Assembly (NCBI RefSeq): GCF_002222655.1
Contig: NZ_CP022423.1
Span: 1,054,001 to 1,118,000, forward strand
DNA length: 64,000 nucleotides
Direction of reading: 5' to 3'
Origin: Vitreoscilla filiformis
GTDB lineage: Bacteria > Pseudomonadota > Gammaproteobacteria > Burkholderiales > Burkholderiaceae_C
Shown in pieces: positions 56,452 to 64,000 of the stretch. Below the pieces are notes generated by a model that did no database searches, had not been told where the DNA came from, and worked only from the letters and a program-made list of their open reading frames with translations. A program made the translations under genes and the position numbers. Every line of letters begins with the position of its first letter. The first letter of the stretch is position 1.

Positions 56452-56539
56452 GATCTCCTCTTGTTTGAGGAAGGTTTGATCACCAACATCACCGCCAGCC
56501 TGATCGGTAACAGCCTCAGCTTCAAGCGCTCAAGGCGCC
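56452..56539 (+). pseudogene. Degraded fragment of a cbbL gene
   Basis: The translated stretch [20 protein letters not shown] matches [20 protein letters not shown] of the intact CbbL downstream (from about residue 111). At DNA level 53 of 60 bases agree over 56461-56520 compared with 57977-58036. The fragment then lacks one C relative to cbbL (ttcaag-cgctcaagg), which breaks the frame. It has no start or stop of its own and overlaps the 3' end of cbbR, whose stop codon lies inside it. Confidence 0.85.
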
Positions 56540-57504
56540 GTGAAAGGAGCGTCTCCCAGGAAGGGCCGGTCGTGCGCAGCCAGCCAGGCTTCGCCTTGCT
56601 CCAAGATGAAATAACGAAACGCCTCAGCCGCCGGTGAAAGCAGTTTGGCTTGCAGATGCACCACGTTCCAACTGCGCATCACGGGCGTGTGCTCCACCGG
56701 GATTAGCAGCAGTTCGCGGGCGCGCAGCTCCAAACCCAAGGTGTGTAGGCTCAGGAAACCCAGGCCCATGCCGGCCATCACCGCTTGTTTGATGGTTTCG
56801 TTGCTGGGCATGACCATGCCGATGTGCGGCTCGATGCGGTGCTCGTGAAAGAACCGATCCATCAGCGCCCGCGTTCCTGAAGCCGCTTCCCGCACCAGCA
56901 AGGGGTGGTGCGCCAGGGCCGATAAAGGCGGATCCCCCTGCGCCAACACCGGATGCCCCGGCGGTGCCACGAACACGTGCGGATGCGCCGCGAATGGCTC
57001 GGCCCGCGTGGCCAACTCACGCGGCGGGCGGCCCATGATCGCCAAATCCACCTCCCCCGCTGCCAGCAGCGCCACCAGCTCCTCGCGGTTGGCACCCACC
57101 TGCAAGCGCAGCTCCACGCCGGGGTGTTCTTCGCGGAAACGCGCCAGCAAGCGCGGCACGAAGTACTTGGCTGTGCTCACCAACCCGACGCTGAGCAAAC
57201 CCGTTTCCAGGCGGCGAAAACGCAGCATGGCGTCGTCCGCGTCCTTCAGTGTGGCCAGCAGGCGCTTGGCGTAAACGAGGAAGTATTCGCCGGCAGTGCT
57301 CAAGCTGACCTTGCGGCCTTGGCGGTCGAACAGCGGCAGAGCGATGGCGGCTTCCAGCTCCTTGACCTGCATGGTCACCGCCGGAGGGGTGAGGTGCAGC
57401 GCCTCGGCGGCACGGGCAAAACTCAAGTGCCGTGCCACTTCGGTGAAGACGCGCAGTTGGCGGAAGGTGATGTTGCGAGTCTGTGATGGGGCAACGAGGG
57501 ACAT
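56530..57504 (-). CDS. cbbR: CbbR, LysR-family regulator of CO2 fixation
   Basis: A 324-residue LysR-type activator: helix-turn-helix in TFRQLRVFTEVARHLSFARAAEALHLTPPAVTMQ (key parts FRQLRVF and AVTMQVKELE) and an effector domain. Position immediately divergent from cbbL and similarity to CbbR make the assignment firm. It would activate cbbLS when metabolites such as RuBP or NADPH signal need. I start at ATG 57502-57504, with AAAGGGGG upstream; the longer frame runs through the operator. Its 3' end reads into the cbbL fragment, so the last residues (DAPFTAP) are derived from antisense cbbL sequence. Confidence 0.93.
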   Translation of the reverse strand: MSLVAPSQTRNITFRQLRVFTEVARHLSFARAAEALHLTPPAVTMQVKELEAAIALPLFDRQGRKVSLSTAGEYFLVYAKRLLATLKDADDAMLRFRRLETGLLSVGLVSTAKYFVPRLLARFREEHPGVELRLQVGANREELVALLAAGEVDLAIMGRPPRELATRAEPFAAHPHVFVAPPGHPVLAQGDPPLSALAHHPLLVREAASGTRALMDRFFHEHRIEPHIGMVMPSNETIKQAVMAGMGLGFLSLHTLGLELRARELLLIPVEHTPVMRSWNVVHLQAKLLSPAAEAFRYFILEQGEAWLAAHDRPFLGDAPFTAP

Positions 57505-57523
57505 GAGGAAACCCCCTTTCAAT

Positions 57524-57568
57524 TTAGTTTTGCTGAATTGGAAACCAACAATTTGTGAATTTACCTGA
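57524..57568. promoter_or_regulatory. Probable CbbR binding sites
   Basis: Two copies of the CbbR-type motif TNA-N7-TNA: TTA-N7-TGA at 57524-57536 and TGA-N7-TGA at 57556-57568, in the 139-bp cbbR-cbbL gap, 32 bp apart (about three helix turns). Confidence 0.6.
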
Positions 57569-57607
57569 GTCATGGGGCTTTCTACAGTCCTGGCATCGCA
57601 GCACTGA

Positions 57608-59113
<1,506 letters not shown>

Positions 59114-59149: not shown

Positions 59150-59587
59150 ATGATGACCAACCCGACCGGCCGGCTCACCCAAGGCCAGTTTAGCTTCTTG
59201 CCCGACTTGACGGACGCGGAAATTGCCGCGCAGATTCAGTACGGGCTGAACCAGGGTTATGCCTGGAGCATCGAGACCACCGACGATCCGCACCCGCGCA
59301 ACACCTACTGGGACATGTTCGGTATGCCCATGTTTGACTTGCAGGACGCGGCTGGCGTGCTGCTGGAGTTGAACAACTGCCGGGCGATGTTCCCGAACCA
59401 CTACATCCGCCTCATGGCGTTTGACAGCACGCGGGGCGTGGAGTCCATCACGATGAGTTTCATCGTCAACCGTCCGGCCAAGGAGATGGGGTTCGGTCTG
59501 GTGCGCCAGGAGGTGCAAGGCCGCAGCTTGCGCTACACCGTCCACAGCTATGCCACCGACCGTCCGGAGACGCAGCGGTATTGCTGA
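59150..59587 (+). CDS. cbbS: RuBisCO form I small subunit (red-type)
   Basis: A 145-residue small subunit of red type: GQFSFLPDLTDAEIAAQIQYGL near the N-terminus and the extended C-terminus (FGLVRQEVQGRSLRYTVHSYATDRPE) that forms the beta-hairpin of red RuBisCO. GGAGAC lies upstream of ATG 59150; a second ATG follows at once. It completes the holoenzyme with CbbL. A dyad terminator-like repeat lies 13 bp after the stop. Confidence 0.96.
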   Translation: MMTNPTGRLTQGQFSFLPDLTDAEIAAQIQYGLNQGYAWSIETTDDPHPRNTYWDMFGMPMFDLQDAAGVLLELNNCRAMFPNHYIRLMAFDSTRGVESITMSFIVNRPAKEMGFGLVRQEVQGRSLRYTVHSYATDRPETQRYC

Positions 59588-59599
59588 CGGCACGGTGCC

Positions 59600-59622
59600 C
59601 CCTCTCCCCTTGTGGGAGAGGG
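59600..59622. terminator. Perfect dyad after cbbS (terminator or dispersed repeat)
   Basis: CCCTCTCCC, loop CTTGT, GGGAGAGGG: nine perfect pairs. No U-tract follows. CCCTCTCCC dyads are a dispersed repeat type in Proteobacteria, so it may serve either as terminator or only as a repeat. Confidence 0.55.
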
Positions 59623-59669
59623 CTGGGGGGAGGGGGAGTCCCTTCACCCACATCACCAGCTTCCCTAGG

Positions 59670-59712
59670 TGAAGCCGCGCGCGATAAATCCAGCCCACCG
59701 CGCGCGATAAAT
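59670..59712 (-). repeat. Prophage right terminus with two transposase-site-like repeats
   Basis: Starts TGAAGC, as does the Mu right end, and contains the 15-bp direct repeat CCGCGCGCGATAAAT twice, at 59675-59689 and 59698-59712 (23-bp spacing, about two helix turns). Mu's right end has comparable repeated MuA sites including CACGATAAAT. Base 59670 is taken as the first phage base; 59665-59669 (CTAGG) would be the five-base target copy. Confidence 0.7.
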
Positions 59713-59755
59713 AACAGGCCAGAGTAGTTGCAGCCTGTGCAATAGATTTGCAGAG

Positions 59756-60610
59756 CTACGGCAGCGCATCCGCCGCACGCGGGGAAATCCACAGCACCTC
59801 GGTGCGTGGTTGTCGCAAAACTCCCACAGCAAAATGCGCCCGCTCCACCCGCCGCCACCCCACCAGCATCTCGTCGTACAGCGCGGACGGGTATCCGGCC
59901 AGCACCACCATCCCCTTGCAGCCCAGTAGCACCTCCAGCAGCTCGACATGCTGTTGCGTGGTCAGCTCATGCCGGTAGCCTGTGTCGGATCGAGTGGAGG
60001 GGACGTAGGGGGGATCGACGAAATGCAGCGTCTGGGGCGTGTCCTGGGCTTTGATCACGGCCAGCGCATCACGGCACTCGATCACCACGCCTTGCAGCCG
60101 ACGCCGGACAGCCACCAAGCTGCGCGGGTACGTGACCCATTCGCCGGCCTTGCCCCTGCCTGACCCCGTGCGGTGCCGCGCGTCGGCAAACGACCGCTTG
60201 CGCGGATCGAACACCGATGCGTGGTGAAACGACAAATAGGCGCGAATGATCGTGCGCTGAGCCGTCACCACCGGATCGGTAGACGACATGAACGCCTGGT
60301 CAAACTCGGCGCGGGCGTAGGGTGTGCGGCGCAGCTTGCGCATCAGCGCTGCGCATTGCATCGGGTCTTGGATGACGCGGAACAGCGACACGATCTCACT
60401 GTCGAGGTCGTTGTAGACCTCAATCTCGCTGCGGGTCTTGCGCATCAGCACGCTGGCCGCGCCACCAAACGGCTCGACGTAAATGCGGTGGGGTGGAAGG
60501 TGCCGAAGCACCCACGGGGCAATCGCCCACTTGCCTCCAAAGTAGCGCAGCACCGCCCGCTTGGGGCCATCAGCGGCCAAGCTGGCCGGTTTGGTTGTCG
60601 TCTGGTTCAC
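59756..60610 (-). CDS. Phage DNA adenine methylase (D12 class)
   Basis: A 284-residue N6-adenine methyltransferase: AdoMet-binding LRYFGGKWAIAPWVL near residue 22, EPFGGAASVLM, and the catalytic HFVDPPYVPS (DPPY) near residue 198. The order matches Dam-like D12-class enzymes. Start is GTG at 60608-60610. It lies between a Com-like gene and the prophage end, where Mu carries mom, so it probably protects phage DNA from host restriction. Its first 41 bp overlap the Com-like gene. Confidence 0.9.
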   Translation of the reverse strand: MNQTTTKPASLAADGPKRAVLRYFGGKWAIAPWVLRHLPPHRIYVEPFGGAASVLMRKTRSEIEVYNDLDSEIVSLFRVIQDPMQCAALMRKLRRTPYARAEFDQAFMSSTDPVVTAQRTIIRAYLSFHHASVFDPRKRSFADARHRTGSGRGKAGEWVTYPRSLVAVRRRLQGVVIECRDALAVIKAQDTPQTLHFVDPPYVPSTRSDTGYRHELTTQQHVELLEVLLGCKGMVVLAGYPSALYDEMLVGWRRVERAHFAVGVLRQPRTEVLWISPRAADALP

Positions 60611-60779
60611 AGAGCCGTCCTCGTTGATGAGTCGCTCTGTGGCGATCGGGGGATTGCGGGATCGTGTCCCTGGTCACGTCGCACATGGTGCCGCATCGCG
60701 GGCATTTGATTTGCACTCGGCCGATAAACCGTGCACGCGCCAGCAGCTTGTTACAGCCGCACCTGATTTCCTCATTCAT
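60570..60779 (-). CDS. Com-like zinc-finger translational regulator
   Basis: A 69-residue protein starting MNEEIRCGCNKLLARARF and continuing QIKCPRCGTMC: two Cys pairs about 19 residues apart, the pattern of Mu Com (IRCKNCNKLL...IRCPRC), which binds the mom mRNA leader and allows its translation. Here it precedes and overlaps an adenine methylase gene by 41 bp. The frame is open 35 codons further upstream, but the Com-type start at 60777-60779 is more likely. Confidence 0.8.
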   Translation of the reverse strand: MNEEIRCGCNKLLARARFIGRVQIKCPRCGTMCDVTRDTIPQSPDRHRATHQRGRLCEPDDNQTGQLGR

Positions 60780-60879
60780 TTTGCAAGCCTGTTGCAATTT
60801 CTGCCACGTAGGCTCCACCTGCTGCGCGCGCAGTAGTGGGGCCTTGGCCGGCTTGCAGCTCCTTCTGCATGACGGGGCC

Positions 60880-60905
60880 GCCACCGGTGCTCCAGCACCG
60901 GTGGC
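60880..60905. terminator. Strong inverted repeat downstream of the tail genes
   Basis: GCCACCGGTGCT and its complement, 12 perfect pairs with a two-base centre, located 14 bp beyond the stop of the small tail gene. No T-tract, so termination is possible but not assured. Confidence 0.45.
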
Positions 60906-60919
60906 AGTCGCCCCACTCT

Positions 60920-61153
60920 TTAAATGTCGATTTCGACGTAGGTCATCCCTGGCGCGCTGCCTTCGATGACGCCGGCGCGCACGAACACCGTAGCGCCGGC
61001 AGCAGGCGCATCGCCTCGGGCCGTGATCCGATCGCCGCCAGGCAGCTCCACCACGGCCACACCTTGGCTCACGCTGACCACCGTACCCACTTGCACCGGC
61101 ACATCCAGTCCCAGCGCGTCGCGCAGGGCGCGATACAGGTTAGGGCTGCTCAT
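60920..61153 (-). CDS. Small phage protein, probably tail/baseplate associated
   Basis: A 77-residue beta-rich protein (VPVQVGTVVSVSQGVAVVELPGG, then ITARGDAPAAGATVFVRAG) that looks like a small OB/SH3-like barrel. It overlaps the stop of the large tail protein by 14 bp (start ATG 61151-61153). No named family recognised; the operon position supports a structural virion role. Confidence 0.6.
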   Translation of the reverse strand: MSSPNLYRALRDALGLDVPVQVGTVVSVSQGVAVVELPGGDRITARGDAPAAGATVFVRAGVIEGSAPGMTYVEIDI

Positions 61154-63275
61154 AGGTCTGCACTCCAATCGTCTGCCACACGCTGGCCCGCCCAGCTTGA
61201 ATTGACAAGCTGCGCGTCATCCCCAGGCGAGTCAAATCGCCGTCCACGTACTGCACCAGCTTGCCGGGGACGATGGCGCCGGTTTGGGCGAGTACCGGCA
61301 GACGAAGTTGCACCAGCGCTTGTCGCCCCACGTCCGACAGCACCGGCAACGCCCTGGCACGGGCTGCCTGCACATCCGTACACAGAGCGTCCGTGATCAT
61401 CGGCGCCACCAAATCGCCCGCCGTGCCGCCACGGGTGACGCGCCCGAGAACGCCCCCCGCCGTAGTCCCTGAGACAAACACCCGGCTGTAGATGGCCTTC
61501 GACGTCCACTCGATCCCCTCTTGGCGCACCACGGCGGCAGGCAGCTCGATGTCAGGCACCAGGCTGTCCCAGGCCCATGGCGCAGCCAGGTAGCGCGGCA
61601 GAACCATCAATTCGTTCCCGGCGGGGGAAGATTGGACATACCCACCCGCCGCCTCGGCAATGCGACAGATCGCACTGATCGGCGTGCCTTGGTGGCTCCA
61701 CACGCCTGCTGGAACCAGCCAATCTGGCACCTGCCAATCAATGGCCCAGTCGCTTGGCACGCCATTGGTGGCCAGTGTGTCGAGCGCCAACTGTTGCGTC
61801 ATTGCCGCCACGACGGCGTTGTTGAACGTGCGCTTGGCTGCATAAGGAGCGTCCCAAATGGCCGAGGCGCTGCGCCCACCGATCGACAGCGACGACTTGC
61901 TCCACTCACGGTCGCGCTGCGCCGACTCCACGATCACCCGCCACACCTGCCCATTGACATGTGCCAGCAGTTCGCAGGCCGCTGCGCCTGCTGCCGGCGC
62001 CAGTTTGGCCTGATCGCTGGCCGCAATCGACGCGCTCCAGCGCCATGCCCAGCTATCTACATCCGCACTGAGGGTCAGTGAGGTGCAGTTGATGGCGGTG
62101 CCGTCGTCCGCCCGAACCAGTTGAACGTCATTGATCACGAGGTACACCCTCCGCGCCGGGACGATGATCCCTGGCAATAGCTGTCGATCACAGCGGAAAA
62201 TCAGATGCGGACTGGCCGGCGCTGGAACAAAAAACCGCAGGTCAGGCGTGCGCGGCCCGCAGCAGGTGTTGACGGGGATCACCGACCCCGGCATCACGCT
62301 GACGCCAGGCGGTGGCCTGACCGCATCCCGGCTCGACGCCTGCCACACCAGCGGCATCGGGGTCGCCACCTGCCACTGATCCGGTCGCGCGGTATGTCGC
62401 GGCGCGGCCGGGCGCGCTCGAACGTCCAACCACGGGCGGGCTGTGCGCAGCAAATCACGCTGTTTGAAGGCCGCGCCGCTGCCCATCTGCCGTGCATCCG
62501 CGTGCGTCACCTGCGCCGCCACCTGGCAGCGTTGGTGATCCCGGTGCCTGTACCGCGCACCAGCGGACAGCCGCCGGGCGTCTATTTGTCGCATCGTGGC
62601 TGTGCTGCCGAGGCGGGCGGTATCGACCTGCATCAGGCGGGCACCTTGGTGCATGGTTCGAAGCGGCGCATACGTCACCGCTGCTTGCACGGCCACCGGG
62701 GCGGATGGGGCCATCACAGCCACCACAGCCGCATCCAGTGTCACGGCGCGCTGGTGGCTTACGCCGATATCACGGGCCGGCCCCCGCGACACATCGGCGT
62801 CGTACACCCCCACCCCAGCCGGCACGACAGGCCCGCCCACTTGCACGGCAGCCACGGCGGTCACGGCATTGGCCTGCAAGGTGGCCACGGGCACCACACT
62901 CGGCAGCGTCACTGCCGCCTGCACCGCGACACCCAGCACCGCCGCACCCGCAGGCGCAACCGTTGGCAGCGTCACCGCTGCTTGAACAGCCACCCCAACA
63001 ACGCCCGCGCCGGCAGGCACGACACGCGGAAGGATCACCGCCGCCTGCGCCGCCACACCAAGCACTACCGCACCCGCAGGCGTGACCGCCGGCAGCGTCA
63101 CGGCGACTTGCGCCAGCCGCCCCAGCGCCTCGTACGTGACCCCTGCGGTCAGCGTCACCCCCGGCAACCCCACCGCCATCTGCGCCGCAAACACCGGCGC
63201 GGTGCCGTCGTCGCCGAACAGCAGCGCCGACGATGCGGGCAACCCCGCCGCAAATCGCAGGTCGGTGGTGGCCAC
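61140..63275 (-). CDS. Large phage tail/baseplate protein with 21-residue repeats
   Basis: A 711-residue protein with GTG start (63273-63275). Residues about 40-125 consist of a near-perfect 21-residue repeat of the form VTLPxVxPAGAxVLGVAxQAA, four to five copies. The C-terminal half (from about residue 370) is a globular, Trp-rich domain typical of tail hub or baseplate proteins (WAWRWSASIAASDQAKL, DWLVPAGVWSHQGTPIS). I cannot give a Mu-gp equivalent. It lies in the tail operon, just after two short genes. Confidence 0.7.
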   Translation of the reverse strand: MATTDLRFAAGLPASSALLFGDDGTAPVFAAQMAVGLPGVTLTAGVTYEALGRLAQVAVTLPAVTPAGAVVLGVAAQAAVILPRVVPAGAGVVGVAVQAAVTLPTVAPAGAAVLGVAVQAAVTLPSVVPVATLQANAVTAVAAVQVGGPVVPAGVGVYDADVSRGPARDIGVSHQRAVTLDAAVVAVMAPSAPVAVQAAVTYAPLRTMHQGARLMQVDTARLGSTATMRQIDARRLSAGARYRHRDHQRCQVAAQVTHADARQMGSGAAFKQRDLLRTARPWLDVRARPAAPRHTARPDQWQVATPMPLVWQASSRDAVRPPPGVSVMPGSVIPVNTCCGPRTPDLRFFVPAPASPHLIFRCDRQLLPGIIVPARRVYLVINDVQLVRADDGTAINCTSLTLSADVDSWAWRWSASIAASDQAKLAPAAGAAACELLAHVNGQVWRVIVESAQRDREWSKSSLSIGGRSASAIWDAPYAAKRTFNNAVVAAMTQQLALDTLATNGVPSDWAIDWQVPDWLVPAGVWSHQGTPISAICRIAEAAGGYVQSSPAGNELMVLPRYLAAPWAWDSLVPDIELPAAVVRQEGIEWTSKAIYSRVFVSGTTAGGVLGRVTRGGTAGDLVAPMITDALCTDVQAARARALPVLSDVGRQALVQLRLPVLAQTGAIVPGKLVQYVDGDLTRLGMTRSLSIQAGRASVWQTIGVQTYEQP
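62902..63153. repeat. 63-bp tandem repeats inside the tail gene
   Basis: GGCAGCGTCAC-type units begin at 62902, 62965, 63028 (variant GGAAGGATC) and 63091, spaced exactly 63 bp, i.e. 21 codons; a degenerate fifth unit follows. They encode the 21-residue repeat of the large tail protein. Confidence 0.8.
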
Positions 63276-63282
63276 GAGCGGC

Positions 63283-63669
63283 TTACGTCAGCGTCAGGCT
63301 GGTCAGGCGGACAAAACCGCCGGCATACAGCGCCACCGCCGACAGGATGACTTCATGTCCACTCCCAGCGATCCCGACGGACATGTCCAACAGGGCCGCG
63401 CCCGCTGACGTGGACAGCCGCGCCCATCCCGCCGTGCCCGACGCGGCCACCGTCGCATCAGCCGTTGCAGAGACCGTCAACACGCCCGCCACTGGCGCCG
63501 CCACGGTGGCCGACATCACCAGATCAGCCAGCAGCGTGCCCGTGGCCGCCGTCTGGGGCGTTGCCGGTGCGGCGCCCGTGTAAATTTTGAGCCGAGCTGG
63601 GCCGGCGGTGAGCAGCGAGCGCAGGGCTTCTGCCCGCGCCGCAATGAGAACGTCTGATTGATTGGCCAT
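63283..63669 (-). CDS. Phage protein, tail-operon member
   Basis: A 128-residue protein starting MANQSDVLIAARAEALRSLL with an Ala/Thr-rich beta-type body (LKIYTGAAPATPQTAATGTLLADLVM). This resembles small tail-fibre-adjacent phage proteins of siphovirus or transposable phages. Start ATG 63667-63669 is just after the stop of the next gene. Function not assigned. Confidence 0.6.
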   Translation of the reverse strand: MANQSDVLIAARAEALRSLLTAGPARLKIYTGAAPATPQTAATGTLLADLVMSATVAAPVAGVLTVSATADATVAASGTAGWARLSTSAGAALLDMSVGIAGSGHEVILSAVALYAGGFVRLTSLTLT

Positions 63670-63671
63670 GG

Positions 63672-64000
63672 TTACTCCAAGGTGGGCGCGAGCCCGTCGG
63701 CGATCAGGGCGCGGTACGTCCCGGCGTTGTCGTGGCACACCACCGAGTACGTGTCGGCCACGGAGAGCCCATCGAACCGGTACAGCCCATCCGTGCCCGA
63801 CCACGTCTCACGCACCACGCGCCTCAGCCGCTCCGAGATCAGCAGCACCCGCCGCGCCAGCGGTGTCACTGGCGGCCCCAGCACGGCCACGGAACCCGCG
63901 ATCACGCCGGGCCCACCATCAATGTCTCGGGCCGATGGCGCCAAATCAGGCAACACCGATGCCACCGCACCGCCGGGCGCACCGCTGGCTGTCAGGCCGC
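63672..64000 (-). CDS. C-terminal part of a phage tail-type protein (cut by window edge)
   Basis: The frame is open from the window edge to 63672, about 109 codons. The end (GLYRFDGLSVADTYSVVCHDNAG) looks like a carboxypeptidase-regulatory-like beta-sandwich, common in tail fibres. The 5' part is outside the window, so the start and full identity are unknown. Confidence 0.55.
   Translation of the reverse strand, partial: GLTASGAPGGAVASVLPDLAPSARDIDGGPGVIAGSVAVLGPPVTPLARRVLLISERLRRVVRETWSGTDGLYRFDGLSVADTYSVVCHDNAGTYRALIADGLAPTLE

Follow-up and report, generated by a model that had tools for sequence, protein, structure and literature searches.

The described systems closest to the locus reported here are transposable phages and a host operon. 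Phage Mu makes a 5-bp target duplication, and its early and late genes are co-directional (PMC5977238, PMC8705779). Phage B3 of Pseudomonas (Beetrevirus, NC_006548.1) makes a 6-bp duplication (PMC8705779), and an inverted early operon is a feature of the B3-like group (PMC5977238). Transposable prophages of Leptospira also have a 6-bp duplication, with TA at both ends (PMC8705779). On the host side, the reference is the bacterial cbbLSX operon with red-type Rubisco (PMC9833100).

We analyzed a 64,000-bp window of the Vitreoscilla filiformis genome (C1:1054001-1118000, where C1 is a contig of 3.46 Mb). As in the cbbLSX operon, cbbR-cbbLS and cbbX plus Calvin-cycle genes are present; the difference is that here prophage DNA lies between cbbS and cbbX. 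The prophage adjoining cbbS is called ph1, and a second one, met next to cbbX, is called ph2. The explanation that we consider very probable as a whole is as follows: ph1 is B3-like and present five times, an insertion marked by CCTAGG took place between cbbS and cbbX, the inserted DNA is a ph1-ph2 composite, and ph1 spread later. The features are listed in Table 1.

Table 1. Features of the cbb locus and of the ph1 copies. Positions are those of the window unless preceded by C1; flanks are the six bases before TGAAGC (right) and the six bases past the left end (left)
Feature	Position	Strand	Details
LysR-type regulator, cbbR by position	56530..57573	-	divergent from cbbL; Pfam LysR_substrate 8.2e-53, HTH_1 9.6e-22
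cbbL, Rubisco large subunit	57644..59113	+	Pfam RuBisCO_large 4.5e-129
cbbS, Rubisco small subunit	59150..59587	+	Pfam RuBisCO_small 4.1e-37
Perfect 9-bp dyad, 5-base loop	59600..59622	.	after cbbS; CCCTCTCCC/GGGAGAGGG
CCTAGG half-duplication after cbbS	59664..59669		partner C1:662785-662790, 8 bp before cbbX ATG
ph1 copy C right terminus	59670..59712	+	TGAAGC + two 15-bp repeats; five-copy comparison, shuffles, alignment to B3-like right ends
Phage DNA adenine methyltransferase	59756..60610	-	Pfam MethyltransfD12 5e-19; phrog_56 5.4e-54
Small ORF upstream of methyltransferase	60570..60884	-	Com-like by eye only
Phage tail protein	61140..63275	-	phrog_6079 5.2e-114
ph1 copy A	C1:102827-141507		38,681 bp; right ACTGCG, left GCAGGG
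ph1 copy B	C1:682657-721339	reverse	38,683 bp; right GAGTGT, left CTTGTG
ph1 copy C (the window's)	C1:1113670-1152350		38,681 bp; window part 59670..64000; right CCTAGG, left ACTGCG
ph1 copy D	C1:1582072-1620752	reverse	38,681 bp; right GCAGGG, left TGCTGC
ph1 copy E	C1:3452594 to contig end, resumes C1:1-9000		split by contig ends; right TGCTGC, left GAGTGT

The prophage terminus beyond cbbS

The original prediction put a TGAAGC at 59670, 82 bp past cbbS, followed by a repeat present twice at 23-bp spacing. The sequence agrees: the cbbS stop ends at 59587, TGAAGC runs from 59670 after a gap of 82 bp, and CCGCGCGCGATAAAT occupies 59675-59689 and 59698-59712, a period of 23 bp. With at most 2 mismatches allowed, CCGCGCGCGATAAAT has 2 matches in the window, where the mean expectation is 0.13 and none of 100 shuffles gave two or more. 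Genome-wide, the exact 14-mer CGCGCGCGATAAAT has 10 matches, all on C1, which make up five pairs; the reversed control pattern has none in the whole genome. The sequence from TGAAGC inward is common to all five copies and the sequence outside differs, so that host DNA stops at this point. A chance repeat or a non-phage repeat at 59670 is ruled out by the shuffles, the genome-wide pairs, and the five shared copies. The two 15-bp repeats are presumably transposase-binding sites. As for the proposal that the host sequence ends at a dyad after cbbS, the dyad is real, the end itself is at TGAAGC, and dyads of this type are dispersed, with 30 cases in 849 kb of the genome's own sequence.

The original prediction had called for an alignment of this terminus, and the ph1 right end does align with its counterparts in B3, Ps59, JBD18, and Fc22. 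These four likewise have two tandem sites within the first 45 bp, and in B3, as in ph1, the sites are ~23 bp apart. Among viral contigs, a 34-base right-end pattern has no exact match. Transposases 31-55% identical to that of ph1 are encoded at 62 viral loci; the CGCGATAAA motif is absent from the stretches examined in five of these.

Family searches covered 21 ph1 ORFs, 20 of them in PHROGs and some in Pfam, and four had no match. One strand encodes the methyltransferase at the right end, tail proteins, the tape measure, the major tail protein, a head-tail adaptor, a neck protein, MuF, a Mu portal, and the large and small terminase subunits. The opposite strand encodes a KilA-N protein, a MuA-type transposase (phrog_310, 3.5e-59), a MuB-type protein (phrog_296, 5e-45), and a late activator. 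Thus, by ORF strands and families, the early operon is inverted relative to the late genes. The termini are TG...CA, with TGAAGC at all five right ends and TTCA at all five left ends. With head and tail genes and a size of 38,681 bp, within the range of ~36-40 kb for such prophages, ph1 is apparently a complete transposable prophage. Three further partial phrog_310 (MuA-type) matches lie at C1:1820008-1821405, C1:2262961-2264148, and C3:31470-32906, C3 being a 40-kb contig.

B3 and ph1 are alike in several respects. Their sizes are 38,439 and 38,681 bp, both have the transposase operon opposite the late genes and a Mor-like gene adjacent to the left end, both start with TG, and both encode a methyltransferase. 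The ph1 transposase is ~36% identical to that of B3 over 94% of its length. The methyltransferase gene is at the right end in ph1 but mid-genome in B3; in B3 it is preceded by a gene annotated as similar to Mu Com, to be compared with the small ORF at 60570..60884. With Mu, ph1 shares MuA- and MuB-type proteins, the Mu portal, and MuF; it is unlike Mu in its 6-bp duplication (see below) and in its opposed early and late genes. The label of a Mu-like right end therefore stands in the sense of a transposable prophage, but because of these two differences ph1 is B3-like rather than strictly Mu-like. As expected for the family, its transposition should be replicative.

Five ph1 copies and their flanks

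The five ph1 copies are near-identical and all lie on C1. Only four alignment columns, each a single-base indel, distinguish copies A-D from one another. Copy E consists of pieces of 12,302 and 9,000 bp, with ~17.4 kb missing. Aligned with copy C, its longer piece has 19 differing columns, mostly indels, 18 of which are in the outer 2.1 kb; five further differing columns in that stretch are reference padding. The outer 2.1 kb, at the contig end, corresponds to C1:3462.8-3464.9 kb. The near-identity of the copies suggests recent activity. Outside this genome, the first 331 bases of ph1 gave a single 42-base match, at 81%, in the 15 other genomes of the genus, and a scan of genome contigs found 10 distant prophage loci, nine in Acinetobacter and one in Moraxella.

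As assembled, no ph1 copy is flanked by a matching direct repeat. Nonetheless, four of the five right-end hexamers recur at the left end of another copy, the pairs being A-C, D-A, E-D, and B-E (right end named first). In random 5 × 5 draws, two or more flank matches arose in 5 of 100,000. When partner flanks are joined, stop-to-stop frames of 675, 557, and 666 codons result at three sites; the 675-codon frame, split by the phage, contains a histidine-kinase H-box by eye. The fourth join is intergenic by eye, between genes taken by eye for phhA and ccoG. Its two halves did not lie side by side in any of the 15 other genus genomes searched; 4 of the 15 matched the phhA half strongly but had the other half elsewhere or matched it weakly. 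The flank pairs across copies, together with the long joined frames, indicate that the duplication is 6 bp and that the pairs are genuine. Thus ph1 sits at unrelated sites, each with a short duplication, and in the assembly the pairing runs across copies, never within one.

The duplication had been given as CTAGG. It is real near cbbS, where it is the 6-bp CCTAGG and not a 5-bp repeat, but the left end of copy C lacks the expected CTAGG, the flank there being ACTGCG. A ph1 left end followed by CCTAGG has no match in the genome, because the partner adjoins the left end of ph2. CTTGTG, the unpaired left flank of copy B, was tried as partner of CCTAGG and ruled out, as 3 of 6 bases are alike.

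A proposed composite between cbbS and cbbX

A cbbL search of 60 genomes (this one and 59 others) gave 28 with matches. Fifteen other genomes had full-length matches at the threshold of at least 75% identity, the range being 75-94%, and downstream DNA was taken from 7 of these 15. The cbbX block is downstream of cbbS in all seven. In five (G001, G003, G006, G010, and G026) it lies no more than ~200 bp past cbbS; in the other two (G007 and G032) a single gene, a ribulose-phosphate epimerase by eye, intervenes. In V. filiformis, the single cbbX is at C1:661838-662674 (reverse), ~450 kb from cbbS as assembled, and its block has the order cbbX, fructose-bisphosphatase, phosphoribulokinase, transketolase, then aldolase. 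The fructose-bisphosphatase gene (L062:15600-16850, reverse) changes frame mid-gene, its 204-aa ORF spanning only positions 148-332 of the 334 of the profile; the change is either a genuine frameshift or a long-read indel.

Since cbbS and cbbX are neighbors in the relatives, prophage DNA entered between them here, which bears out the earlier proposal that a phage separated cbbLS from cbbX. Judging from gene order, the prophage DNA parts cbbX, cbbF, cbbP, and cbbT from cbbR-cbbLS, and its insertion would have severed them from the cbbR-cbbLS promoter. An AGGAG before cbbX is a possible ribosome-binding site, which the duplication may have kept. Among the matches listed in a literature search (titles and abstract openings), none described a prophage splitting a cbb operon.

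Outward from the left end of copy B are 19,866 bp that start with CTTGTG and are followed by CCTAGGAGCTTCCC and then the start of cbbX. These 19,866 bp (~C1:662.8-682.7 kb; L012/L062) are a part of ph2, a second Mu-like prophage. The ten ORFs searched include a cut head protease, MuB- and MuA-type proteins, a large terminase, a portal, and a neck protein; the head protease is severed at CTTGTG, and the MuA-type transposase is 35% identical to that of ph1. No tail gene was found among these ten ORFs and no right end was seen. Thus ph2 is a truncated, not a complete, transposable prophage. The original prediction asked whether cbbX follows the left end of the phage; it does so, with CCTAGG, at the left end of ph2, though not at that of ph1 copy C.

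The ph2 left end matches that of B3 at 29 of 48 bases, and none of 38,000 other 48-mers of the region is as good. Its ungapped match to the ph1 left end, 20 of 48, is not above chance, 399 of 38,000 positions being equally good. The ph2 end terminates in TA, whereas those of B3 and ph1 have CA; comparing it with the B3 and ph1 left ends led us to discard an inner TTCA as the ph2 terminus. Part of the ph2 gene order is inverted, with the large terminase, portal, and neck genes pointing toward the left end. The MuB side abuts the head protease, whereas in B3 the early operon is beside the left end. A search of the inversion ends revealed no inverted repeats of 9 bp or more.

With the duplications joined, the site reads as follows: cbbS, CCTAGG, ph1 (38,681 bp), CTTGTG with the remaining ph2 sequence (19,866 bp including CTTGTG), CCTAGG, cbbX. 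The unit from the ph1 right end to the ph2 left end is 58,547 bp. In it ph1 lies inside ph2, and the right half of ph2 and one CTTGTG are gone. We read the CCTAGG halves as the duplication made when DNA inserted, in one event, between these two genes.

Because ph2 lacks its right half and right end, the history of the composite is a reconstruction. ph1 would earlier have jumped into ph2 at CTTGTG, within the head-protease gene. After that, the ph1-ph2 pair may have moved as one element, with one transposase accepting both ends; alternatively, the right half of ph2 may have resembled that of ph1, and a later deletion through recombination of these two halves would have removed a piece. Neither history calls for a coincidence. 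That one transposase could pair a TG end with a TA end is a proposal; the ph1 right end and the ph2 left end both carry GCGCGATAAATCC. Finally, ph1 would have spread to four more sites, with a 6-bp duplication at each.

Chromosome order: misassembly or real rearrangement

Six DnaA boxes at C1:47911-48441 coincide with a switch in GC skew, so oriC is likely at C1:47.9-48.4 kb. The dnaA gene, at 74.5-76.6 kb, is ~26 kb off, and further DnaA boxes are at 39.2 and 76.7-77.2 kb of C1. Skew was fitted over 197 sampled 5-kb bins with two replichores and the origin fixed at the DnaA boxes. The duplication-joined order gave R2 0.377, rank 1 of 64, and placed the terminus at 0.499 of the circle; the assembled order gave R2 0.12, rank 41 of 64. 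The joined order ties to three decimals with the next one, and at least four other orders are within 0.002. Over all 384 orders, the joined order ranks 6 and the assembled order 234. When the origin is left free, the assembled order does slightly better (residual 0.0175 versus 0.0187) and the orders are not separated. From the fixed-origin fit, the joined order is probably the long-standing arrangement, and the assembled order either arose very recently or reflects misassembly.

Each of the four ph1 duplications has its two halves at different copies in the assembly, and together they make one unbroken chain, c-a-d-e-b-z. One chain is formed by 12 of the 64 single-circle pairings, 22 of the 64 have no intact pair, and six orders of undoing the events retain one circle at every step. 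Serial replicative transposition fits the chain, and recombination or misassembly can also give it. The meaning of the CCTAGG junctions is independent of how the flanks came to be exchanged. It could be argued that CCTAGG is a coincidence, ph1 and ph2 having entered independently and later deletions having made the present ends. ph2 is indeed rearranged and truncated, and the 37.7-kb stretch around it contains another CCTAGG. Against this, the six bases are exactly at two independently defined phage termini (~1/4096 at a fixed position), and the site is between genes that are adjacent in relatives. We hold coincidence to be very improbable.

For the flank exchange itself, we lean toward misassembly: reads shorter than 38.7 kb could not have bridged five copies, and wrong flanks would have been joined. 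Each copy would then keep its own duplication, and only ph1 and the ph2 remnant, 58.5 kb in all, would really separate cbbS from cbbX. The single-base indels that distinguish copies A-D resemble long-read errors, and copy E is broken at the contig ends with its differences concentrated in the outer 2.1 kb; both observations suggest that the assembly was built from long reads about as long as the repeat or shorter. In addition, in the joined order the origin coincides with the skew switch and the terminus falls at 0.499, the assembled order gives the 541-kb A-B segment the wrong polarity, and multi-copy prophages of such a kind in a genome are reported to lead to misassembly (PMC8705779). On the other hand, four copies were carried through whole, where an assembler failing at repeats might refuse, and all five junctions must be wrong and yet form a single chain. 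A real exchange, by whatever route, is a substantial possibility. One route, homologous recombination between identical copies after ordinary insertions, producing inversions, is served by identical 38.7-kb repeats in both orientations. A bacterial genome in several inverted forms via repeats is on record (PMC3072379), although the repeats in that case are gene repeats and IS elements rather than Mu-like prophages. We think this route unlikely, as several crossovers are needed for no copy to retain its own pair (22 of 64), the single chain comes from 12 of 64 pairings, and the resulting skew polarity is poor. The other route is serial intrachromosomal replicative transposition from the copy at cbb, where every event inverts a segment and splits the new 6-bp duplication between two copies. 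It accounts for five copies and six flanks in a single directed chain with six workable undo orders, and the Shapiro model explains inversions tied to a transposon copy (PMC3562280). It would have to be very recent given the poor skew polarity, and 12 of 64 single-circle pairings yield such a chain as well; we consider this route doubtful. Its fullest form, in which the assembled order is real, a 58.5-kb TG/TA element split the operon, and four replicative transpositions scrambled the chromosome, is improbable. No paper in our literature search contained terms for all four of the following: a Mu-like prophage, inversion of the chromosome, multiple copies, and transposition.

The locus is of interest in two ways. 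Rubisco and its activase gene are parted by prophage DNA with both halves of the scar legible, and a single strain suffices to study the effect of uncoupling cbbX, cbbF, cbbP, and cbbT from cbbLS. Moreover, the 6-bp duplications of multi-copy transposable prophages tell which flanks match, a general check on assemblies, and here they contradict the assembly at five of five copies. Were the fullest form of the serial-transposition reading true, this natural genome would preserve a legible history of successive Mu-type inversions.

Among known systems, the flanks resemble Mu-mediated inversions and deletions under the Shapiro model, in which duplications are split between two copies as they are here (PMC3562280); the pattern at hand is known from an assembly only, not from molecules. 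The Leptospira prophages have TA at both ends, whereas the composite combines a ph2 TA left end with a ph1 TG right end. Transposable-phage DNA splitting a metabolic operon is an event of a known kind, well preserved in this genome. What is unusual is the two-phage composite, together with five copies whose scars contradict the assembly.
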